Shown here piece after piece: positions 13,485 through 61,521 of a stretch of DNA of 64,000 nucleotides. The DNA is taken from contig CANJLD010000008.1 in the NCBI GenBank assembly GCA_947475165.1, forward strand, positions 24,841 through 88,840. The letters run 5' to 3'. The position numbers and the translations under genes are program-made. Below the pieces are notes generated by a model that worked only from the letters and a program-made list of their open reading frames with translations, searched no databases and had not been told where the DNA came from. Numbering within the stretch: the stretch's first letter is position 1; every line of letters begins with the position of its first letter. This stretch comes from Bacteroidota bacterium (GTDB lineage Bacteria > Bacteroidota > Bacteroidia > Chitinophagales > LD1).

Positions 13485-15815
13485 ATGAAACACGCCTTTA
13501 CCATTCTATTCGTTTTTCTTTGTTCTGTTTTTGTCATAGCACAGACACCTCATAAATTTAATTATCAGGCAATAGCTCGTGATGTTTCAGGGAATGGACT
13601 TTCCAATCAAAATATTTCAGTTCGGTTTACCATTCGCGATATTTCGGAAACCGGTCCTATTCTTTATCAGGAAAAGCAAAGTCCTACTACCAATCAATTT
13701 GGCTTGTTTAATACACTTGTTGGTGATGGAGTGATTTCTATGGGAAGTTTTTCTGCTATCAACTGGGGAGTGAATCTGAAATACATGCAGGTGGAGTACG
13801 ACCCTTCCGGAGGAACTAATTATCTACTGGTTGGTTCGGCACAATTAGTTAGTGTGGCTTACGCGCTTTATGCAGAAACTGCCGGTAATGGAGGTGGAGG
13901 AAGTACGGGGGCAACAGGTGCTACCGGAGCGGCAGGAAATACAGGAGGCACTGGAGCTACAGGGGCAACCGGTGCTACTGGTCCTGCTGGAAACGGAAAT
14001 GTGCATGGAACGCTTAATTACATTTCGAAGTTTACTCCTGACTCATCTTCGCTGGGCAATTCAAGAATATTTGATGATGGACATTATACCGGTATTAACA
14101 CCAATACTCCCGAAGCGCATTTGCATTTAAAAGGTGATACAGGAACCACTTTGCTGCTTACAAATTCAAGTACTGCAAATGGTTTTTCCATAAATCAGCT
14201 TTCCGATTCGGGAACGGTGGGTTTAATAAATAGCGAGCACAAAGATTTATTTATAAGCACCAATGCCAATGAGCGGATGCGCTTTACTAAAGATGGTTTA
14301 GTGGGAATAGGGACTTCCTCCCCCACACACGATTTAGTTTTGGTTACTCAAACCGGTTCTCCTACTTCTTTACAAATAGTTTCCGCGCTTACAGGGCAAG
14401 GTTCCGCTGACGGTTTGTTACTCGGACAAAGCGAAGCGTTTGGAACAAGTATGTTGATGAACCAGGAAAATAAAGGATTGCTTTTCGGAACAAATAATCT
14501 GGAAAGAATGAGAGTTACCGAAGCCGGTAAGGTAGGAATCGGGCTTACCAATCCATCGCGCGAGTTGGTAGTATCAAATGCTTTTGATACTTCAAGCATC
14601 CAATTGATTTCCTCAGTAACCGGTGCAGCTAAAACAGATGGCTTTGTTATAGGGCAGATGAATAACACCGGAGATATTAAATTGATGAACTACGAAAACG
14701 AAGGAGTGTTGATTGGAACAAACGCCACTCCCCGCGTTATTGTTTTGCAGGATGGAAAGGTCGGTGTGAATGTTCTTTCACCGGTAAATGATGTAGTGGT
14801 AAAAAGCGCATCGTCTTCGCCTTCTAAGTTTCAAATCGTTTCCGACTCCACCGGTGTCGGCCCTACAAACGGATTATTGATTGGCCACACATCTTCTTCC
14901 GGTGCTGCTGTAATAATGAATTACGAAAATCAACCACTAAGTTTCGGAACAGCTTCACAGGAAAGAATGAGAATTACAAATAACGGCAAGATTGGAATCG
15001 GTTTGATTTCTGCTTCGCCTGTTTATAATATAGATGCCGCTTTTAATACGGATGCCGTTCTTCGTCTACGCGGTCAGGATGGAAGTTTCAACCGCTCGCT
15101 TTTAATATTAGATAAGACAAGTGCTGCGAACGACCAGGCTGCGGTGCAATACAGTTTGAATGATTCGGCACAATGGTTAGTGGGCACACTCAACAACAGC
15201 ACGTATCGCATTTTTAATTTCAACACCGGCAACGATGCCTTCTCCATCAATTACGCCAACGATAATGTAGGCATAGGCACACCTTCCGCTTCTGCTAAAT
15301 TGGAAGTAAACGGTCAACTAAAAATTACCGGTGGTGGACCGGCTGTTGGCAAGGTGCTTATTTCAGATGCTAACGGGCTTGCATCATGGGGAGAAGATAA
15401 TCCTAAAAAGGGTTTCAGCGCTTACAGCACTTATGGATTGCTAAGTATAGACAATGCAACAGAAACTCCTCTGCTTTTTGATAATGTAGATTTTAACGAT
15501 GGCAATTATTACAATTCAACAACCGGTAGTTTCGATGTATTAAGCGAAGGCATGTATCATTTTGAGGTGCGTGTAATCTGGAATCCGCTTTCGGTGAGCG
15601 GTGATGCTGTTCTTGCTTTTCGTGTTAACGGAGTAATTGCACAGCAAGTTCGCGTAACTGTTTCTACTGGTGCACTACCACAGCACCTTTCAGCTAACTT
15701 TAAATTGTATGCCGGTGACCGTGTAGATGTAATAGTTAGTCAAACCAGCGGTGCTCCGCAAGACCTTAATCTTACTCAACCGGAGAATACTTTTACCGGC
15801 TATAAAGTTTATTAA
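13485..15815 (+). CDS. Secreted fibre-like protein: collagen-like Gly-X-Thr region, ~77-aa tandem repeats, C-terminal C1q/TNF-like head
   Basis: GATGATGAAGNTGGTGATGATGATGPAGNG; repeated GLLxGxxx...NxExxLxxGTNxxxRMRxTxxGKVGIG; C-terminal GFSAYST...GMYHFEVRVIWNP...LYAGDRVDVIV. Confidence 0.85.
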   Translation: MKHAFTILFVFLCSVFVIAQTPHKFNYQAIARDVSGNGLSNQNISVRFTIRDISETGPILYQEKQSPTTNQFGLFNTLVGDGVISMGSFSAINWGVNLKYMQVEYDPSGGTNYLLVGSAQLVSVAYALYAETAGNGGGGSTGATGATGAAGNTGGTGATGATGATGPAGNGNVHGTLNYISKFTPDSSSLGNSRIFDDGHYTGINTNTPEAHLHLKGDTGTTLLLTNSSTANGFSINQLSDSGTVGLINSEHKDLFISTNANERMRFTKDGLVGIGTSSPTHDLVLVTQTGSPTSLQIVSALTGQGSADGLLLGQSEAFGTSMLMNQENKGLLFGTNNLERMRVTEAGKVGIGLTNPSRELVVSNAFDTSSIQLISSVTGAAKTDGFVIGQMNNTGDIKLMNYENEGVLIGTNATPRVIVLQDGKVGVNVLSPVNDVVVKSASSSPSKFQIVSDSTGVGPTNGLLIGHTSSSGAAVIMNYENQPLSFGTASQERMRITNNGKIGIGLISASPVYNIDAAFNTDAVLRLRGQDGSFNRSLLILDKTSAANDQAAVQYSLNDSAQWLVGTLNNSTYRIFNFNTGNDAFSINYANDNVGIGTPSASAKLEVNGQLKITGGGPAVGKVLISDANGLASWGEDNPKKGFSAYSTYGLLSIDNATETPLLFDNVDFNDGNYYNSTTGSFDVLSEGMYHFEVRVIWNPLSVSGDAVLAFRVNGVIAQQVRVTVSTGALPQHLSANFKLYAGDRVDVIVSQTSGAPQDLNLTQPENTFTGYKVY

Positions 15816-20830: not shown

Positions 20831-21050
20831 ATTTTAAGAGCCGGAATTACACGCTTAAGAGCGGGTATTACATTCTTAAGAGTTTAGCTGACACTCTTAA
20901 GAGTGTGAGTGACACGCTTAAGAGCCGAGCTGACATGGACAAGAGTAAGTTTAACATTCTTAAGAGCGCGTATGACACGCTTAAGAGTTAATCTGACACT
21001 CTTAAGAGCGTGAGTGACAGGCTTAAGTGTGAGCGCGACCTTCTAAAAAA
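20831..21050. repeat. Degenerate 21-bp tandem array (about 10 units), consensus nnnnnntgacacncttaagag
   Basis: Units start at 20841, 20862, 20883, 20904, 20925, 20946, 20967, 20988, 21009, 21030. Confidence 0.93.
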
Positions 21051-21200
21051 CAGGATTGACGTACTTACTAACTTTATTGCTGTTTTTAAGAAGGGGAATG
21101 ACAAAGACCGGAACTACGATTTATGTGATTGAAGGATTGGAGGCATGATTAAAGGCAGGAGCATCTTGCCTTGAAGTATATTTGCCATTAAGAATTTACG

Positions 21201-21234: not shown

Positions 21235-21461
21235 GCCTCATCCGGTCTTCGACCACCTTCTCCTGCCAGAGAAGGGAAAAGGAATTAAATGCAGTTTGTT
21301 TGGAGAGGGGGTGGATACAAAACCACCCCGCCCTTCGGGCACCCCTCCTGTTAGGAGGGGAAAATGTAAAATTTTGCAAAAATGGTTTTGTTGACGCAAT
21401 GCGGAAATGTTGATGGCGTTTTTAGGTTGTAATTATTTTTTAAAACCTAAACCAAATTAAG

Positions 21462-22421
21462 ATGGAAGCCATTGTAAAAAATGAGTACCCATGCGCTCAG
21501 AAAGACGCTTACAGCGTGCTTGAAACAGCATGGGGCAATTATGCAACGCATATTGCTCCTTTTACTAACTACAAACCAAGCAAGTATATTCTTGCGCTAG
21601 CTGCCACTGCCAAGCTACGAATAAAGGCAGCGCGTGAGTTGCCGGATTTTCAGGCGCGAAGCGGGCTGGCAGAGGAATTGAAAATAATGGTGGGGCAGAA
21701 AGCCACCTTATGCTTGAATGATTTTCAGTTATTGAAGGGATATATTGATGAGGCCTTTAAGGGAGACAATATTGCTTTACGCAAACCGAATTATGAAGAG
21801 GCAGGACAGTTGTATTACCGAGAGGCTGCGCAAAATGATTGGGAGAGTGTGCAGAGTTTGGGTGACTCGATGAAGGGATATATTGACAGTAAGCTGGCGG
21901 TGCTTACTACCGATGGTGCGATGCCGGGAACTTTTGAAGGAGAGGTGGAAGGCAGGAGATTGCTTTTTGAAGAAAAGTATGCTGCTTTTAAGGCGGCAGA
22001 GCAAACGCAAGTAGCCACCGCAGAAAAGGTGACTGCTACGAATGCCTGTTACCGCGAGGGAATGGATATGATGAAGGACGGGCAACGGGTGTTTGTGAAT
22101 GACCCTGACATAAAATCGTTGTTTGTGTTTGCGAGTTTGCTGGATATGATTAACCCGAAGGTGGCAGGCATAAAGGGACGGCTACAGGATAGTGTAACGA
22201 ATGTGAATTTGACCGGAGCAACGGGAACGTTTACACCGGAGGGCGAACCGGCAATTATTACAGAAACGGATGAGAATGGCGAGTATGCTGTGTTGCGATT
22301 ACGCGCGGGAACTTACCAGGTGAAGTGGGTGCTGGCAGGTTATATTATTTTGGAGGATACCGTGGTGATTGAGTTGCAAACGGTGAAGACGAAGAATTAT
22401 AAGCTGGTGGCGAACCCGTAG
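21462..22421 (+). CDS. Hypothetical protein with C-terminal carboxypeptidase-regulatory-like (Ig-like) domain
   Basis: GTFTPEGEPAIITETDENGEYAVLRLRAGTYQVKWVLAGY. Confidence 0.75.
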   Translation: MEAIVKNEYPCAQKDAYSVLETAWGNYATHIAPFTNYKPSKYILALAATAKLRIKAARELPDFQARSGLAEELKIMVGQKATLCLNDFQLLKGYIDEAFKGDNIALRKPNYEEAGQLYYREAAQNDWESVQSLGDSMKGYIDSKLAVLTTDGAMPGTFEGEVEGRRLLFEEKYAAFKAAEQTQVATAEKVTATNACYREGMDMMKDGQRVFVNDPDIKSLFVFASLLDMINPKVAGIKGRLQDSVTNVNLTGATGTFTPEGEPAIITETDENGEYAVLRLRAGTYQVKWVLAGYIILEDTVVIELQTVKTKNYKLVANP

Positions 22422-23498: not shown

Positions 23499-26400
23499 AT
23501 GAAAAAAGAAATCAAATTATTGATGCTTATCATAGTGGTAGGTGTTAATGCCAATTTCAATTTTGTTTTAGGACAATCTACAATTACTGGAAATGGTTTA
23601 AGTGGTGGTGGAATCCCAACACCCGCTGAATATTTGGGAAGCAGTAATGGTTATGATGTACTATTTAGAGCAAACGGCACAGAGCGTATGCGGATTTTGC
23701 AAAGCAACGGGAATGTTGGTATAGGCATTACAACACCCCAAAATTTACTACACCAACACTTAGCAGACAATGTTAATGTGTTTCATCAATTTACCAATGG
23801 AAATACTGGCAGTGGCAGTGCCACCACAGGTTTTAGAATTGGGTTAGCGTATAACTCCACTTCCGGCTTGTCGGATGTTACAATAAGACATTTTCAGGAG
23901 AATGCCAGAATGATATTTGCCACCACTGATGCTCAAGGGCATTGGACAAGGATGCGGATTGAAAATTATATTATGCCTGCTAATCCTTATTCTGCTACTG
24001 CTTTTACTTCAAAACCATTAAACAGGGTGGGAATTTTTGAAGAAGAAAGTATAAATGGTGCTTATGTTGACCAACCGCCTTTGGCGCTGTTGTATTTAGG
24101 ACACCATTGGTCGCCTAGCAATGGCGGGCATAGGTCGTGGATGGATATAGGTAGCTACATAAGTGCGAAAACCGATTATATGTATGTAGGAACCAAAAAT
24201 GCTTATACAGGAGGTACTTGGTATGAGCCATGGAGCAACTGGGAAAATGCGGTGATATCGTGGGGGGATAATTTAAACGGACCGGAGGGTGCCGATGATT
24301 TGGAGTTTATTTTTACCGGACCTACAGGAAGTTACGGACATGCGGGAACATGGGATGGGTTGGAAGTAGGAAAGTTTAGCCCCTATGGGCGTTTAGGCAT
24401 TGGTAATTTTGCAGCCACGACAGCGAATGGTTCGGGCATTGCACCACGCAGACGGCTTGAAATATATGATGAGCATTTGATGGATTTAGGAGGCGGAGCT
24501 TTTGCTGATGCGCCTCAATTGCGACTTACTTATACCCCCAATGCCAATATTAACTTAGGTATTCATACGGATTTTCAAACGACTGCTGATGGACATCTTT
24601 TAATTAAAACAGAAAGTAGTGGAACAGGAAAGAATGTGGGCATAAATTTTACCACCGCTACCTCGCCTGCTCCAGCCCAAACACTTGATGTAAACGGGAC
24701 GGCTGCTATACGCGCTGTAAATGGCCCGACAAATACGCTTGATAAAATTCTCGTTTGGAATGATGCAAACAATGGCGAGATAAAGTATCGAGATGCTTCT
24801 TCATTAGGAAATGTTTCTGCTTGTACTACTCCAGCCCCTGCCGATAATCTCCTTACAAAGTGGAGTCCAGCATCTTCAAAAATTATTTGTAATAGTATTG
24901 TTTATGATGATGGAGATAGAGTTGGTGTAAATACTGGTAATACTCTGACCGCTAGCAAGTTTGAGGTAAAAAACAACAATAGAATAATTGGCACTGCCAG
25001 TTATTCTACTTCAAATACTAATCTTGTTAATATTGGTGTATTCGGCTATGGACAAAATGCTACCAATGCCAATGTTGGGATAGTGGGTAATTCGCCCGCG
25101 CAGATAACTTTTGCCGGTGTGCCTCCAGCTATTGTTACATCCACGGGAATAACATTAACTACGTTGCCAATGAATGTAGGTGTTATTGGCAGGGCACAGG
25201 GAAACACATACAATTTTGGAGGTATATTTGAAGCCAACTTAGCAGTAGGTTGCCCTAAAATGAATATTGGTGTATATGCCAGTGCACGTAAAAGTTGCTA
25301 TACCAACTTTCCGCAAGGTGGATTAGCCGGATATTTTAATGGCGGTACTTGGTCAACAAGTTCATGGCAAACAGTTTCTGATGTTCGATTTAAAGACAGT
25401 ATCCAAGGTGTTAATAATGCTTTAGAAGTAATAGCCCGTTTACGACCGCATAGCTATGTATACAAAGCAGATAGTTTCCCTTACATGAATTTGTCTTTGA
25501 GAAAAAGTTTTGGCTTCATTGCTCAAGAAGTGGATACAGTGCTACCTATGTTGGTTCATTCAACATTAAGACCACCTGTAATAGATACAGCTGGAAATAT
25601 ACTTCAAGATACCATGACAATCTTTGGATTGAATTATACAGAACTCATCCCCTTTGCCATCCGCGCCATACAAGAACTCGACTCACTGAAAGTAGGAACC
25701 ACCACCACCAAAGCCGATAGCAACCATGTAGTAAAATGGAACACTACCGATAAGACACTTGTTAACAGCCAGATTTACGATAATGGCAACCGGATAGGTA
25801 TACCGACAGTAAGTGCGAGTTCTTTTTTGAATGTGTTTGGGCATAATGATACTATAACGGGGAACTTTACTTCGGATTTTGGTTATGCTACTGAGGTGGT
25901 AAATGCAAGTTACAGCACAGATGGCAACCCTAATATGGTGGTGGCTGTGAGGGGTTATAGTAAATATATAGATTTTGGCAGTGATGCTGATGGTATAGGC
26001 GGAATGTTTGAGGGCGGGATGTATGGAAGTTACAACAAGGCGAGCGGAACTAATTTTACAGAGGTGGGTGTAGTAGGTGAAGCTGAAAATGCGAGCGGAA
26101 GAAATATGGGAGTGGTTGGTGTGGCACACCAGGAGGGTGTTGCAGATAATGCAGGAGTGATGGGCAAAGCGGATAGTTCGGAAACCTTTAATGTAGGCGT
26201 GCTGGGTGTGGCGGAGTATGTTAGTACGACTTCGGATAATGTGGGTGTAACCGGTTTTGCATCGGGTTCGGACAATTATAACATAGGCGGTGATTTTGAA
26301 GCGACAGATGCACCGGGAACTAATTACGGAGTATTTGCCTATGCCGGTGGCTCGTCACCGAGTTACTATGCGGGCTATTTTGATGGGGATGTGCACTCTA

Positions 26401-27167
26401 CAGGTACAGTGACATGGGCAAGTGACGGTATGCTGAAAAAGAATGTGGCAGATATGAACCCGAATACTGCGTTGGCTAAGTTGTTGCTTTTGCAACCTAA
26501 AACCTACGAGTTTAAAAGAGCCGACTACCCTTATCTGAGTTTGCCGCAAGGTACGCAGAACGGATTGATTGCGCAGGAGGTTCAGCAGGTGTTTCCGGAG
26601 TTGGTGAAAGATATTAAGCAACCGGAGAGAAAGGATAAGGATGGTAAGACGGTGAGCCCGGAATTAGAATATAAAGGATTGAATTATGCGGGTTTGATAC
26701 CGGTGCTGGTGAGTGCGGTGAAGGAGCAGCAGACGAAGATAGATTCGCTGGAGGATGTGATTAATACGCGGTTGGCGGAGATTGAGGCGCGGTTGAATAT
26801 GTGTTGCGGTAGTGGAAAGAGAGATGAAGGAGAAGGCGAAGGAGTTGTTGGTGATAACACCAACAACGGCACTGTTAACCGGTTGACGGTGGAGTTGAGC
26901 AGTATGCAGGTGGTGGTGCTTGAGCAGAATGTGCCTAACCCTTTTGCGGAGCAGACTTCTATTTCGTATTTTATACCTGAGAACGTGAGCGGAGCGCAGT
27001 TGATTTTTAGTGATATGATGGGGAATGCGATTAAGACTGTTGAGGTGAAGAGCGGTTATGGTGTGGTTACTGTTTTTGCTTCGAATCTTAGCACGGGGCA
27101 GTATAGTTATTCGTTGCTAATTGATGGTAAGGTGGCGGAGAGTAAGAAGATGGTGAAGCAGCGGTAA
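23499..27167 (+). CDS. Large T9SS-exported tail-fibre-like protein with two peptidase S74-type modules
   Basis: SDVRFKDSIQGVNNALEVIARLRPHSYVYK...FGFIAQEVDTVLP and SDGMLKKNVADMNPNTALAKLLLLQPKTYEFK...NGLIAQEVQQVFPELV; C-terminal VPNPFAEQTSISYFIP sorting domain. Confidence 0.9.
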   Translation: MKKEIKLLMLIIVVGVNANFNFVLGQSTITGNGLSGGGIPTPAEYLGSSNGYDVLFRANGTERMRILQSNGNVGIGITTPQNLLHQHLADNVNVFHQFTNGNTGSGSATTGFRIGLAYNSTSGLSDVTIRHFQENARMIFATTDAQGHWTRMRIENYIMPANPYSATAFTSKPLNRVGIFEEESINGAYVDQPPLALLYLGHHWSPSNGGHRSWMDIGSYISAKTDYMYVGTKNAYTGGTWYEPWSNWENAVISWGDNLNGPEGADDLEFIFTGPTGSYGHAGTWDGLEVGKFSPYGRLGIGNFAATTANGSGIAPRRRLEIYDEHLMDLGGGAFADAPQLRLTYTPNANINLGIHTDFQTTADGHLLIKTESSGTGKNVGINFTTATSPAPAQTLDVNGTAAIRAVNGPTNTLDKILVWNDANNGEIKYRDASSLGNVSACTTPAPADNLLTKWSPASSKIICNSIVYDDGDRVGVNTGNTLTASKFEVKNNNRIIGTASYSTSNTNLVNIGVFGYGQNATNANVGIVGNSPAQITFAGVPPAIVTSTGITLTTLPMNVGVIGRAQGNTYNFGGIFEANLAVGCPKMNIGVYASARKSCYTNFPQGGLAGYFNGGTWSTSSWQTVSDVRFKDSIQGVNNALEVIARLRPHSYVYKADSFPYMNLSLRKSFGFIAQEVDTVLPMLVHSTLRPPVIDTAGNILQDTMTIFGLNYTELIPFAIRAIQELDSLKVGTTTTKADSNHVVKWNTTDKTLVNSQIYDNGNRIGIPTVSASSFLNVFGHNDTITGNFTSDFGYATEVVNASYSTDGNPNMVVAVRGYSKYIDFGSDADGIGGMFEGGMYGSYNKASGTNFTEVGVVGEAENASGRNMGVVGVAHQEGVADNAGVMGKADSSETFNVGVLGVAEYVSTTSDNVGVTGFASGSDNYNIGGDFEATDAPGTNYGVFAYAGGSSPSYYAGYFDGDVHSTGTVTWASDGMLKKNVADMNPNTALAKLLLLQPKTYEFKRADYPYLSLPQGTQNGLIAQEVQQVFPELVKDIKQPERKDKDGKTVSPELEYKGLNYAGLIPVLVSAVKEQQTKIDSLEDVINTRLAEIEARLNMCCGSGKRDEGEGEGVVGDNTNNGTVNRLTVELSSMQVVVLEQNVPNPFAEQTSISYFIPENVSGAQLIFSDMMGNAIKTVEVKSGYGVVTVFASNLSTGQYSYSLLIDGKVAESKKMVKQR

Positions 27168-28664: not shown

Positions 28665-29198
28665 ATGGACAATAGGCAAGGAAAATTCCAAATTCCAAAT
28701 TCCAAATTCCAAATTGGGAGATTCTTCATTTACTCATTTACTTGTTTAGTCATTTGCGGGTTACTGTTTTCGTCTTGCGATAAGAATGTGGTGATGGAAA
28801 GCCAGCAGAACGTGGTGAACAACAAATGGGATTATGCCGATGCCAAAACTTTTACGGCAGAAATTACCGATACTGTTCAACATTATAACATAGCCGTAAG
28901 TCTTCGCCACGGTTTTAATTTTGAGTGGCGCAACGTTTGGGTGAAAATTGAAACTACTTTCCCTGATGGTAAAACATATGAAAGAAGAGTAAACCTCGTC
29001 CTCTCCGGACCGGATGGTGTTTGGAATGCCGACATACTTGGCGATAACTGCGATATTCTAATTCCTATTCAGGATAATGCTTTCTTTCCTCAGGTGGGCA
29101 AATACAGTTTCAAAATTTCGCAGGATATGCGCGTGAACCCGCTGGGGTATGTAAAAACTGTAGGAATGCGGATTGAAAAATATTCTACTCCGAAATAA
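28665..29198 (+). CDS. gldH: Gliding motility lipoprotein GldH
   Basis: Lipobox SSCDKNVVMESQQNV, NNKWDYADAKTF, GldH-like body and downstream position from PSP1 gene. True start uncertain because the N-terminus is repeat-derived. Confidence 0.85.
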   Translation: MDNRQGKFQIPNSKFQIGRFFIYSFTCLVICGLLFSSCDKNVVMESQQNVVNNKWDYADAKTFTAEITDTVQHYNIAVSLRHGFNFEWRNVWVKIETTFPDGKTYERRVNLVLSGPDGVWNADILGDNCDILIPIQDNAFFPQVGKYSFKISQDMRVNPLGYVKTVGMRIEKYSTPK

Positions 29199-35968: not shown

Positions 35969-36292
35969 TGTAATGGTTTTTATTTGGTTAATAATGGTTA
36001 CGCTGTTGTCAGATTTTGTGCCAACGCAAAAAAATATTTTGCAAAAATGATGCTTTGGTATAAACTAAACTTTAACGCAGTGCAAATAAAACTCAATACC
36101 AGCAAGGGTTTCGGTGACTATCGTCATACACAAAAGAAATTTTTATCAGTAATTTAATGAGTTTAGTCCTGTGGCAAGTATGTCAGAACGAAATGGCAGA
36201 GCCGACCTGATTTGGCAGAAAACATTTGAAATTTAGAATTTGGAATTTGGAATTTTTGCCTTTGAAATTGTATTTTCATTCAAAATTATCCC

Positions 36293-37070: not shown

Positions 37071-38030
37071 ATGTACATAAGCAAAGACAAAACCTTCAAC
37101 ACCCTGCACGAATACTTCGATTACATTGTAGAAGCCATTGGCTTTCCGGCAGTGCATAAGCATTTTAAATCTGATACAGTTTTAAGTGACGGCATTAAAC
37201 TGCATGTAGATGTATATGAATACGATGCCTCCGCTCCTACTATTGTTTTTATTCCCGGCACGGCTATTTACGGTTTGTGTTATGGCGATTTGCTTTACAA
37301 ACTGGGGCAAACCGGTTACAACATTGTAGCCTTTGACCCTCGCGGGCACGGACAAAGCGAAGGACTGCGTGGCGATTACACCATCAGCGAGATAATGAAG
37401 GATGCGGAGAATGTAATTACCTACGCCATCAACCGGTTCAACAATAAAGTGAATTTAATGGGCAGCAGCCAGGGAGGAATTGTTGCTTTTTACATGGCGG
37501 CAAAAGACGAACGGCTGAACTCGGTTATCTGCCAGAACTTTGCCGACCTTGGCGCACCCGAAACTTTGCAGCTTGCGCGGCACCCGCGCTTATTCAAGTA
37601 TATAAAGCTGATGATTACCCGCCACGGCCACCGGTTGCCGAATGTGCAGGTACCGGTTACCAGTTACATTGATTTAGATAAAATACCGGTGCAGTATTTT
37701 GGCAGTGCCCGCGCGTTTATGGAAAGCGACCCTATTGCTTTAAAAACAATTTCGCTCCGCGCTTTGCAAAGTTTAGCGCATACCAATATGGTTAAACCCG
37801 TAGAAGAAATTAAAGTGCCGGTAATGGTGTTGCAGGGAACTGCCGATTCTATTTTTCCGGTGGCGTATACCCAGGCAATTTTTGATAAAATAACTTCGAA
37901 GAAAAAATTCTCTCTCTTCCCTAACCGAAGCCATGCCGTATTGCATGAAGATGCCGATGCGGTAATTCCGGAAATTAATAAGTGGCTGCAAGAAATCTAT
38001 GAGCCACAGTTAGAAGCTGAGCAGGCATAA
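37071..38030 (+). CDS. Alpha/beta hydrolase
   Basis: DPRGHGQSEG, GSSQGG nucleophile elbow, LQGTADSIFP, SHAVLHED. Confidence 0.9.
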   Translation: MYISKDKTFNTLHEYFDYIVEAIGFPAVHKHFKSDTVLSDGIKLHVDVYEYDASAPTIVFIPGTAIYGLCYGDLLYKLGQTGYNIVAFDPRGHGQSEGLRGDYTISEIMKDAENVITYAINRFNNKVNLMGSSQGGIVAFYMAAKDERLNSVICQNFADLGAPETLQLARHPRLFKYIKLMITRHGHRLPNVQVPVTSYIDLDKIPVQYFGSARAFMESDPIALKTISLRALQSLAHTNMVKPVEEIKVPVMVLQGTADSIFPVAYTQAIFDKITSKKKFSLFPNRSHAVLHEDADAVIPEINKWLQEIYEPQLEAEQA

Positions 38031-38078: not shown

Positions 38079-38251
38079 GCGTCATTTCTGTATGGAAATG
38101 CGTCAACCCAATGCGGAAATGCGTTAGCCCAATGAGGAAATACGTCTTACCAATGTTGAAATTCGTTAACCAAATTCCGGTTCGCGTTAACTGAATTACA
38201 CTTTACGTCATCTGATTAACAAAATGCGTCAACCCAATTACACTTTACGTC
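38079..38251. repeat. Degenerate 21-bp tandem array (8 units plus partial), consensus rcgtyaacccaatnnsgaaat
   Basis: Units at 38079, 38100, 38121, 38142, 38163, 38184, 38205, 38226, partial at 38247. Confidence 0.93.
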
Positions 38252-38328
38252 AAAAAAGTTTAGATTTGAGCCTTCTAACCAATAATTTACCTCTTTTCAG
38301 CTAAAAAACACTCAAAATCAATCTATAT

Positions 38329-38760
38329 ATGGCATTTCTAACACCCAAAGAAGAACCTAAGAAACAAGTTTGGCAAAAGCCTGTTCCAAGTCATGCATCT
38401 AAACCCGCAATGATTGGTCCGGTGATTAAAAGAATGGCAGAAGAAAAAAACATTCTTCCTTCAGAACTGGAAAGGCGATTGGGCATGAGCGACCGCAACA
38501 TCTATCGCCTTTTCAGAGCCAAAACCCTTAGCATGAAACAGTTTTTTGCGGTAAGCGAAGCACTGGAAGAAAACCTCCTGCTGCATTTTGACCCCAATGT
38601 AAAGCCACTGCCAAACCCACTGCAAGCCGAGCTGGATGAACTAAAAGCAGAAAACGAAACACTTAAAGCGCAACTGAAAGAGCTTTCACCACTTGCCAGC
38701 GAAAACATAGTGCTGAAAGGGCAATTGGATGTTTTAAAGGAAGTGATGAAGGGGAAATAA
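38329..38760 (+). CDS. Helix-turn-helix protein with C-terminal coiled coil
   Basis: LPSELERRLGMSDRNIYRLFRAKTLSMKQFFAVSEAL; ELDELKAENETLKAQLKEL. Confidence 0.75.
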   Translation: MAFLTPKEEPKKQVWQKPVPSHASKPAMIGPVIKRMAEEKNILPSELERRLGMSDRNIYRLFRAKTLSMKQFFAVSEALEENLLLHFDPNVKPLPNPLQAELDELKAENETLKAQLKELSPLASENIVLKGQLDVLKEVMKGK

Positions 38761-42993: not shown

Positions 42994-43637
42994 ACCTCGC
43001 ATCTAAAATTGACCACACGCTGTTAAAGGCAGATGCATCTGAAAAAGAGGTGAAGAAAATTTGTGCCGAAGCCAAAGAGTTTGGATTTGCTGCGGTGTGC
43101 ATTCCGCCATATTTTGTTCGCAAATGCAAGTTGTGGCTTACAGATACCAATGTGAAAGTGGCAACTGTTGTTGGCTTTCCGTTGGGTTATGCGCACACTC
43201 CTGCCAAAGTTGAAGAAGCACGAAGAGCTATTGATGAAGGTGCTGATGAAATTGATATGGTCATTAATATTATTGCCCTGAAAGCCGGTGACTGGAATTA
43301 TTTAAAAAATGAATTGACCAGTGCGGCAACAATTGTTCAGTTGCGCGGTGGCAAACTGAAAGTAATTCTGGAAACAGGATTGCTTACCGATGCAGAAATT
43401 ATTAAGGCGTGCGAATTGTGCAAAGAAATGACTGTTGATTTTGTAAAAACCTCTACCGGTACTATTCAGCCTGGTGCAACGGTGGAAGTTGTAAAATTGC
43501 TGAGAGCAAATCTCCCTAAAACAATTAAGATAAAAGCAAGTGGCGGAATACGCGATAAAGAATTTGCTTTGCAACTGATAGAAGCAGGTGCCGACCGGTT
43601 AGGTTGCTCTGCGAGTGTAAGTATAGTTTTAGAATGA
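42990..43637 (+). CDS. deoC: Deoxyribose-phosphate aldolase
   Basis: IDHTLLKADA, VVGFPLGYAHTPAKVEEARRAIDEGADEIDMVIN, KTSTG, KASGGIR. Confidence 0.95.
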   Translation: MNLASKIDHTLLKADASEKEVKKICAEAKEFGFAAVCIPPYFVRKCKLWLTDTNVKVATVVGFPLGYAHTPAKVEEARRAIDEGADEIDMVINIIALKAGDWNYLKNELTSAATIVQLRGGKLKVILETGLLTDAEIIKACELCKEMTVDFVKTSTGTIQPGATVEVVKLLRANLPKTIKIKASGGIRDKEFALQLIEAGADRLGCSASVSIVLE

Positions 43638-44077
43638 AAGTTCAAAGTTCAAAATTCAAAATTCAAAGTTTGCAGAGATTAGTTTTTCTGTCTTGTGTCT
43701 TATGTCTTATGTCTTATGCCTGTTTCTCCCAGGATAGTACAGCGGTTGGTGGCAACAAAAATTTTACAGTTAAGCAGGAACCTCAAATAGCTTCGCTGCT
43801 TTATAAATACAAAGAATACAACCGCAAGCGCGAGTTTGCCGAAGGTTTCCGCATTCAGATAATGTACACTGATATTCGCGATGACGTTTACAAAAGCAAA
43901 GGGGCGATGTATAAAGAGTTTTCTGATTTGAGTTCTTATGTGGAGTATGAGCAGCCGTATTACAAGTTGCGGTTGGGTGATTTTAAAACAAGACTGGAAG
44001 CCACCTATTACTTGCAGCAAGTGATAACTTTATACCCCGGTGCTTTTATTGTCCGCGACAAAATCAAGATTAAATAA
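43634..44077 (+). CDS. SPOR-domain-like secreted protein
   Basis: GFRIQIMYTDIRDDVYKSKGAMYKEF...YYKLRLGDFKTRLEA; start overlaps deoC stop (ATGA). Confidence 0.7.
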   Translation: MKVQSSKFKIQSLQRLVFLSCVLCLMSYACFSQDSTAVGGNKNFTVKQEPQIASLLYKYKEYNRKREFAEGFRIQIMYTDIRDDVYKSKGAMYKEFSDLSSYVEYEQPYYKLRLGDFKTRLEATYYLQQVITLYPGAFIVRDKIKIK

Positions 44078-45250: not shown

Positions 45251-46510
45251 TTATTCCACCACCAATTTCCCGCTCTTCAGTATTTCGTTCGCAGAATTTT
45301 TTAGTTGATAGAAATAAACACCCCCCGGTAATCCATTCACCTCAATTTTAGATTTTAGATTTTGGATTTTAGATTGAAAAATAATCTTCCCGCTTACATC
45401 TGTCATTACGAGATTACTTCCCACCAATTCATTGCCAACTGTAAACTGCCAAGTGCCAGCCGAATTCGGATTCGGAAATACAGAAACTGAAATTTCATTC
45501 TTCAAATCTTCAACTCCTGTAGAGGCACTTGGAGTAATTTCTAAAATTCTTATTGGCATTCCGTCACTCCAATTTCCCATGCCATGTTGTTCAGGTGTAT
45601 CACCAAAAGCGTATTCGCAATTTTGATTAAGAAGCGCACAATCCATCAGTGCATCCTGCAATTTCCAGGTGCCGAAATAATCAAATGCATCTACCGGTCC
45701 GTTGCCCGATGCAAGAATGAAAAGATTTGACTCGCCATTATCAAAAGCCGCATCACCTGCAAGCGGGTCAAAATGCGAAGCGGTTATTGCAGGAGAACCA
45801 TGACTATCTCCATATGTATGCACTAAATTTTTATGCGAAGTGGGCGCATTAACCGACTGATTATAAATGGTAGTGCCCGGTGCGGTGCCTACAATAATAT
45901 CATCCTGACTTACCAAAGCCAGATACGGAATATCGGCAGGAAAATCAGCGTAAGAGTTCATTAAAAAAGAGGCGGCACCAGGCTGCATGGAAAACGCACT
46001 CAAAGGTTTCGGCAGGCCATACTGCCGATACAACATACTCATGTTAGCCGTAAGCACACCACCCACCGAATGACCGAGAACGAAAAAATTTTCTCTTCTG
46101 CCTTTCACATGCCCTGCTTGCTGAATGGTATCTAATGCGCGTTGAATTCCTTTTGCGCAACTATCATTAAAAGTTGTGTTATCTGCATTCAAATCTTTTT
46201 GGTAGCGCGGATAAATTACAATGTTGCCCTTGCGAACTAAATGCTTGATAAATGCTCCGTAAAGTTTCGGGTTGGTTTCGCCTAAACCGTGAATGAAAAC
46301 AACAACGTTTGCAGAATCGGGGGTTGGCGTGTTTGGTTCATACAACCAAAAATCGCCACCACTCCCGTTGGTGCCATAATCGTATTGAGTTACACCGCCA
46401 AAAGTATAATCACTTCCACCGGGACCGGATGTAGGTTGAGTTGGCTGAGTAATTTGTGCGGATAGAGAAAGCGAGAGAAGAACTGCGAACGAAAGTAGAA
46501 GTTGCCTCAT
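45251..46510 (-). CDS. Alpha/beta hydrolase-type secreted protein with T9SS type A sorting domain
   Basis: VVFIHGLGETNP, LGHSVGG; C-terminal VFPNPNSAGTWQF; start set at MRQLLLSFAVLLSLSLSAQ. Confidence 0.85.
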   Translation of the reverse strand: MRQLLLSFAVLLSLSLSAQITQPTQPTSGPGGSDYTFGGVTQYDYGTNGSGGDFWLYEPNTPTPDSANVVVFIHGLGETNPKLYGAFIKHLVRKGNIVIYPRYQKDLNADNTTFNDSCAKGIQRALDTIQQAGHVKGRRENFFVLGHSVGGVLTANMSMLYRQYGLPKPLSAFSMQPGAASFLMNSYADFPADIPYLALVSQDDIIVGTAPGTTIYNQSVNAPTSHKNLVHTYGDSHGSPAITASHFDPLAGDAAFDNGESNLFILASGNGPVDAFDYFGTWKLQDALMDCALLNQNCEYAFGDTPEQHGMGNWSDGMPIRILEITPSASTGVEDLKNEISVSVFPNPNSAGTWQFTVGNELVGSNLVMTDVSGKIIFQSKIQNLKSKIEVNGLPGGVYFYQLKNSANEILKSGKLVVE

Positions 46511-60966: not shown

Positions 60967-61521
60967 ATGACAATAAACAAGACGCTGTTGTCTAGCGTCT
61001 GTTGTCTATTGTCTATCGTCTGTTTCTCCCAACTCAATTACGATTACACGGCCGGAAAATTTATGATTAAAGGAAAGGTGGTAGATGTGCAAAGCAAGGC
61101 TGTCATTCCTATGGCAAATATCGTTTTTGTAAAAAATGGCAAAGGGGTCAGTTGCGATAACGAAGGCAATTTTACGATGTATGTTTATAAAACCGATACC
61201 ATTAAATTTTCATCTACCGGTTACATCTCCAAAATAATTCACATGAACGATATTGACTCAAGCAGATATTATACGCTTGAGATTCAACTGATACACGATT
61301 TTGTTAAGATGAAAGATGTTATTATTTATCCTTTCCGAACCAAAGAGGAATTTATTGATGCGTTTATGGAAGCCAAAGACATAAACAAAATAAGTATTGC
61401 AGGAATTGCTCCGCCTAAGTATTCTCATATTACACCTAAGGCTAAGTTCAGCAATCCTATTTCGTTCCTCTACGACCGGGTAAAAAAACGCAGAGCAGCT
61501 AATCCTGAGTTTAAGCCATAA
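60967..61521 (+). CDS. Secreted protein with carboxypeptidase-D-regulatory-like domain
   Basis: Signal peptide LLSSVCCLLSIVCFSQ; MIKGKVVDVQSKAVIPMANIVFVKNGKGVSCDNEGNF; alternative start 60943. Confidence 0.75.
   Translation: MTINKTLLSSVCCLLSIVCFSQLNYDYTAGKFMIKGKVVDVQSKAVIPMANIVFVKNGKGVSCDNEGNFTMYVYKTDTIKFSSTGYISKIIHMNDIDSSRYYTLEIQLIHDFVKMKDVIIYPFRTKEEFIDAFMEAKDINKISIAGIAPPKYSHITPKAKFSNPISFLYDRVKKRRAANPEFKP

Follow-up and report, generated by a model that had tools for sequence, protein, structure and literature searches.

The array of 21 bp direct repeats at positions 38079–38253 of the window (the whole 64,000 nucleotide stretch of DNA analyzed here) is probably a helically phased, multi-site operator array, which would be bound cooperatively by the Cro/C1-type regulator encoded beside it and would control that regulator's own gene and often a gene for a helical-bundle protein as well. 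The features of the window that bear on this reading are:

20831–21105, no strand: second 21 bp array, about 13 units, consensus.tCTTAAGAGc..g..TGACA, unrelated to the array at 38079
21462–22421, + strand: gene 3′ of the second array, encoding a helical protein with a weak C-terminal prealbumin-like (CarboxypepD_reg) match
38079–38253, no strand: 21 bp array with forward consensus gCGTcAacccAaT...gaaaT; eight full units and an incomplete ninth
38254–38328, + strand: spacer from the array to the start codon; degenerate extra units at 38247–38267 and 38289–38309 are retained by the unit model
38329–38760, + strand: gene for a 143 amino acid HTH/coiled-coil protein whose best Pfam match, to HTH_3, is sub-threshold
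38413–38592, + strand: codons 29–88, five-helix Cro/C1-type DNA-binding domain as predicted by AlphaFold2
38617–38754, + strand: codons 97–142, lone long C-terminal helix (AlphaFold2), presumed to be a coiled-coil oligomerization segment

The eight full units of the 38079 array begin at 38079, 38100, 38121, 38142, 38163, 38184, 38205, and 38226, and are followed by a partial ninth (ACGTCAA...) from 38247; the array contains no indels. The mean pairwise identity of the eight units is 0.57, and self-identity at lag 21 is 0.68 (over 84 bp), whereas none of 300 first-order Markov shuffles exceeds 0.49. An earlier note on this DNA had described eight 21 nt units that end 77 nt short of the start codon at 38329, and this is confirmed, with the partial ninth unit carrying the array on to 38253. 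The array is flanked by an alpha/beta-hydrolase gene (37071–38030) on one side and the HTH gene on the other, and a promoter and ribosome-binding site are expected to lie within the spacer. The G000 genome (that of the window) contains no second copy of the array, and a regulon made of repeated copies was not found; a single unit-like motif at 21391 in the window is not conspicuous in a PWM scan. A structured RNA was considered and rejected, as there are no Rfam matches at E ≤ 0.1 and the predicted fold is not unusually stable (z = +0.81 on the + strand). A CRISPR array was rejected as well, since the divergent 21 bp units are contiguous and spacers are absent.

The AlphaFold2 model of the 38329 protein has five helices over residues 29–87 and a long helix at 97–142, with block pLDDT values of 86–88 for residues 31–80 and 71 for residues 81–90. 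Its closest Foldseek matches are SinR, HipB, C.Esp1396I, and P22 c2, with consistent topology (target-normalized TM 0.54–0.79 for the first three; marginal E values of 1.6e-3 to ∼1e-2). The HTH_3 match scores 18.9 bits against a Pfam gathering cut-off of 23, and a paralog on contig C5 scores 22.2 bits for HTH_26 (cut-off 22). On the AlphaFold2 model and the Foldseek matches, the DNA-binding domain is predicted to have a Cro/C1-type (XRE) fold. PADLOC and NCBIfam searches with the protein returned no family that fits convincingly; membership in a defense system was rejected, the PADLOC matches for one paralog being weak, HTH-type, and unconvincing, as was a phage or plasmid origin (viral contigs match the coiled coil only, plasmids give no match, and phages give one weak partial match).

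When the whole window is scanned at period 21, just the 38079 and 20831 places are conspicuous. The period of 21 that the earlier note gave for the 20831 array stands, but that array is longer than had been noted (∼13 units) and precedes not an HTH gene but gene 21462, which was placed in the helical-bundle class on its anatomy. The two arrays had also been thought to share a TGAC anchor. However, the similarity of their consensi is 0.26, no better than the median of 0.28 for column-shuffled array pairs, and a CGTY pattern every 21 bp is rarer genome-wide (15 matches) than its reversed control (63 matches). The anchor is therefore best regarded as a coincidence between two dissimilar arrays, and it fails more generally because consensi are private to almost all arrays; a search for further TGAC-anchored arrays, whose lack was to have counted against the earlier proposal, is consequently the wrong test. 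Elsewhere in the window, a tandem repeat at 13904–13981, with periods of 9, 18, and 27, probably encodes Gly-rich sequence, and 23499–27167 encodes a 1222 amino acid protein in which two segments (SDVRFKDSI... and SDGMLKKNV...) resemble, by eye, endosialidase-type intramolecular chaperone domains.

Genome-wide statements about G000 (3.88 Mb in 45 contigs) derive from searches and from sampled stretches that cover 719 kb, the window included. With an array defined as intergenic with a self-identity of ≥50% over 105 bp, these 719 kb contain 23 repeat regions at period 21 (a few of them probably coding), one at 22, two at 24, and none at 18, 19, 20, or 23, so that in the 21 bp periodicity scan proposed earlier 21 is the outstanding intergenic period of the sample. 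Arrays lie in 21 of the 111 sampled intergenic gaps of ≥150 bp, although at least one of the 21 (C5:13418) resembles a small coding Thr/Ala-rich gene, and extrapolation suggests a total of roughly 100 in the genome. They consist of about 6–21 contiguous phased units. Among 36 arrays compared the consensus is private in nearly all, and it is common only to two small groups (C16/C37/C2:126.6k, and C5:106k/C13 with C6:2k more distant). The earlier view that these are a family of elements and not the product of one slippage event is supported by the 23 regions and the 36 arrays.

The arrays accompany particular genes. The 38329 protein has eight clear paralogs in G000, and an array lies directly upstream of all nine of these HTH/coiled-coil genes (lag-21 identity 0.60–0.94); the same is true of all four members of a second, Pfam HTH_26-like family. 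In a control set of 14 other HTH_3 genes only two have arrays nearby, and both adjoin bundle-type genes. Two near-identical HTH paralogs, L046 (C16:1–1998) and L047 (C37:1–2001), each end ∼106 bp from a contig start, which places assembly breaks next to this repeated gene; further copies of it may be present.

The second class of genes with arrays, which the earlier note had not picked up, encodes the helical-bundle proteins. These have an N-terminal part that is confidently helical and a C-terminal domain that is beta or prealbumin-like, and in the model of one a beta domain comes after the helical bundle (pLDDT 86.7). Members include L025:15513–16496, L049:51–1028, L168, L169, L170, L171, L173, L175, and L181; searches of Pfam, NCBIfam, PADLOC, and the PDB for a function gave just the prealbumin-like C-terminal domain, in some members. 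There are 15–19 bundle matches in G000, nearly all behind 21 bp arrays. The first profile finds 15 loci, of which 13 are preceded by an array; the two others are a gene directly behind another bundle gene and a 66-residue fragment. A single array lies between diverging HTH and bundle genes at C2:96k, C5:152k, C14, C20, and C25. The combination of HTH gene, array, and bundle gene recurs as a module.

Among 30 genomes from the family, HTH-family matches occur in eight, all within the window's genus. The question posed earlier, whether homologs of 38329 in other genomes also have upstream arrays, is answered by their presence at 17 of 19 main-family loci outside G000 in the same genus; of the two exceptions, one is cut short where its contig ends and one is borderline, with a lag-21 identity of 0.49. 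A sister HTH subfamily (MKVHIGEKIKKRAEEL...), used as a control, has arrays at none of five loci. Distant homologs in three other families of the order have them at five of 13 (L093, L097, L099, L100, and L111), and at at least two of these loci, L093 and L100, a helical, bundle-like gene (assigned by eye) lies across the array from the HTH gene. In eight further genomes of the genus an array accompanies all ten bundle genes examined, and in G017, G006, G007, and G003 the bundle genes still have arrays even though the main HTH/coiled-coil family is absent. Bundle genes number 19 in G000, 15 each in G015 and G016, and 0–4 in the remaining genomes. Array density is 3.2 per 100 kb in G000, 4.5 in G016, and 4.0 in G015 (biased upward, since the G015 stretches were partly picked around known HTH loci), all of which carry the HTH family, and 0–1 in G017, G006, G003, G020, and G029, where the few matches look coding or low-complexity. 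Array density thus follows the presence of the regulators.

The step between adjacent units is best at exactly 21 in 336 of 374 cases, and proteins bound to such units would therefore lie on one face of the DNA. Column conservation in the 36 arrays has a significant 21 bp harmonic (z = 4.3) and another of 10.5 bp (z = 2.6), without power at 3 bp (z = −1.1) or 7 bp (z = 0.4); the 21 and 10.5 bp periodicity is expected of a protein that reads one DNA face and not of coding sequence. Orthologous arrays keep their spacing, and two pairs retain 11 versus 11 units, while the identity of paired units falls to 0.54–0.78. In all five ortholog pairs compared the columns that are conserved within one species are spared between species (r = 0.60–0.79, p ≤ 0.003). 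The orthologous partner of the 38079 array is L052 in G013, where the HTH protein is 73% identical.

Array similarity follows HTH identity across 26 loci (Mantel r = 0.72, p = 0.0002, a value that includes the shared ancestry of the loci), and the partial correlation of the recognition helix with the arrays is 0.39 when the coiled coil is controlled and 0.19 when the rest of the HTH is. Loci L048, L066, and L070 have recognition helices that are 67–87% identical and arrays that are unlike (similarity 0.27–0.39), which speaks against a strict recognition code. Symmetric dimer binding would lead one to expect palindromic units, and unit palindromy reaches p < 0.05 in just five of 26 arrays. The earlier proposal of an autoregulatory operator for the HTH protein, a prediction from sequence, is indirectly supported by the nine of nine and 17 of 19 linkages, the consensus that tracks the HTH protein, and the column constraint.

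If so, each 21 bp unit (two turns of B-DNA) would be one site for the HTH protein encoded 77 nt downstream, and proteins on successive units would share one DNA face, allowing cooperative binding in which the long C-terminal helix is the likely contact between neighbors. The 38329 protein would control its own promoter, and a bundle gene that shares an array would be a likely target of the same HTH protein; the phasing, the column constraint, the linkage to the HTH and bundle families, the parallel divergence of HTH protein and consensus, and the Cro/C1-like predicted fold are observed, whereas the binding, its cooperativity, the sign of the regulation (repression or activation), the role of the bundle protein, and the physiological role are inferred. 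The paralogs would each have drifted to their own consensus, giving largely insulated regulator–operator pairs in one genome.

It seems unlikely, though the idea deserves real weight, that some other protein (a common partner or an architectural reader of the 21 bp phasing) binds the arrays and that the HTH genes are merely members of its regulon, as the bundle genes would be. Bundle genes without an HTH neighbor have arrays, also in genomes without the main HTH family, and other binders must therefore exist; likewise the extrapolated ∼100 arrays per genome exceed the 13 known HTH-family genes, so that further binders or relics must be assumed, and some nearly equal recognition helices are paired with different arrays. 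One shared binder would not, however, require a consensus that is private and conserved between orthologs. That the intergenic arrays code for peptides with a 7-residue (heptad) repeat, or for coiled coils, is hardly credible: 21 bp is seven codons, and coding coiled coils of G000 also have period 21 (L023, L026, and L032:3250 were set aside as true cases), but fully open frames are found in 12 of 36 arrays versus 16 of 36 expected with permuted columns, the 3 bp conservation periodicity is absent, and the 38079 array has stops in all six reading frames.

Seven of 22 convergent gaps in the G000 sample contain arrays (one a probable coding repeat), and no HTH or bundle gene was recognized alongside those at L030:3190–3430, L147:19572–19868, L148:16916–17164, and L160:5250–5674. 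Such arrays have no obvious promoter, do not fit the operator model, and are unexplained. One of the arrays in convergent gaps, an orphan 3′ of a bshA-like glycosyltransferase gene in G000, is absent from all 16 congeners examined, even where the neighboring protein is 97% identical; in G013 the same neighbors are separated by a gap of ∼60 bp without an array, and in G012 (L208) there is a 42 bp repeat (2 × 21) unrelated to that of G000, in which the two palindromes TGTAATTACA and GAAAC..GTTTC alternate at a spacing of ∼21 bp. This locus could suggest that the arrays are mobile elements, or recombinogenic ones, which enter intergenic DNA and have the HTH protein as their partner, as could the three close HTH paralogs that share one consensus, two of them near contig ends. 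Such elements are nonetheless quite improbable, since the consensus is private and not copied, HTH-linked arrays are stable between species, and an unsystematic look at the arrays inspected noticed no transposase, recombinase, flanking duplication, or terminal repeat. A functionless minisatellite made by replication slippage would account for tandem units of one length and for the species-specific orphan array, but we consider it very improbable overall, because the period is fixed at 21 over unrelated sequences without a comparable excess at 19, 20, 22, or 23, unit number and spacing are kept between species despite sequence divergence, constraint is column-specific, and the gene linkage is non-random. 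Slippage is strongly contradicted for the HTH- and bundle-linked arrays and may still apply to some orphans; the orphan arrays may have inserted recently, may be relics, or may have a different role.

With a cooperatively bound operator array as the preferred reading at 38079, a wider system can be proposed tentatively, and we hold it to be somewhat short of probable: in several families of one Bacteroidota order, HTH/coiled-coil proteins would control bundle proteins through private phased arrays, tens per genome, with the arrays acting beyond promoters too. If this is true, one genome offers a natural panel of regulator–operator pairs with shared architecture and differing specificity, and the insulation of paralogous repressors from one another becomes open to study. 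It would also give a first handle, via regulation, on a large helical-bundle family of unknown function, and the 21 bp array, being simple to scan for, would serve as a hallmark of such genes. Searches of open-access literature gave no description of private, genome-wide 21 bp arrays linked to two HTH families and to a bundle family, which speaks weakly for novelty, because coverage was incomplete and the searches partly narrow. There is a fair chance that arrays, HTH proteins, and bundle proteins make up a distinct system.

Iterons and repressor operators already exemplify the principle of an autoregulating protein that binds direct repeats in phase. The iterons of plasmid replicons are direct repeats of ∼17–22 bp bound by Rep, which autoregulates its own gene. 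The G000 arrays are likewise direct repeats in helical phase, about two turns apart, beside the gene of a DNA-binding protein, but here there are many private-consensus arrays per genome and a Cro/C1-type HTH protein instead of Rep; no Rep-like gene is adjacent, the HTH protein has no plasmid match, and tens of arrays are spread across large contigs. The Cro/C1 autoregulators (SinR, HipB, restriction-modification C proteins, and P22 c2) are alike in predicted fold and in having the gene right behind the presumed operators; the G000 arrays and their HTH proteins differ from them by ∼6–21 contiguous phased units in place of a few operators, by the long C-terminal helix of the protein, and by the linkage to bundle genes. 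BldC of Streptomyces, a MerR-like protein, binds head-to-tail on direct repeats, and binding here may likewise be cooperative along direct repeats whose number varies, although the protein family and repeat length differ.

TAACTGA heptamer direct repeats occur in Beggiatoaceae, Cyanobacteria, and some Bacteroidetes and have been suggested to be regulatory (PMC4679880). The window has six short 7 bp tandem repeats, at 28683–28715, 36224–36255, 43637–43670, 43689–43718, 45345–45375, and 60988–61021 (units AAATTCC, ATTTGGA, AAAGTTC, TGTCTTA, ATTTTAG, and TTGTCTA), which form a separate, frequent class like those heptamers (PMC4679880). The 21 bp arrays were not assigned to the TAACTGA type, as their period is 21 and the 7 bp conservation harmonic is absent. 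Both kinds are intergenic tandem arrays that occur many times per genome, but the TAACTGA repeats (PMC4679880) are 7 bp units of one fixed sequence, whereas the arrays described here have 21 bp units with a different sequence in each array.
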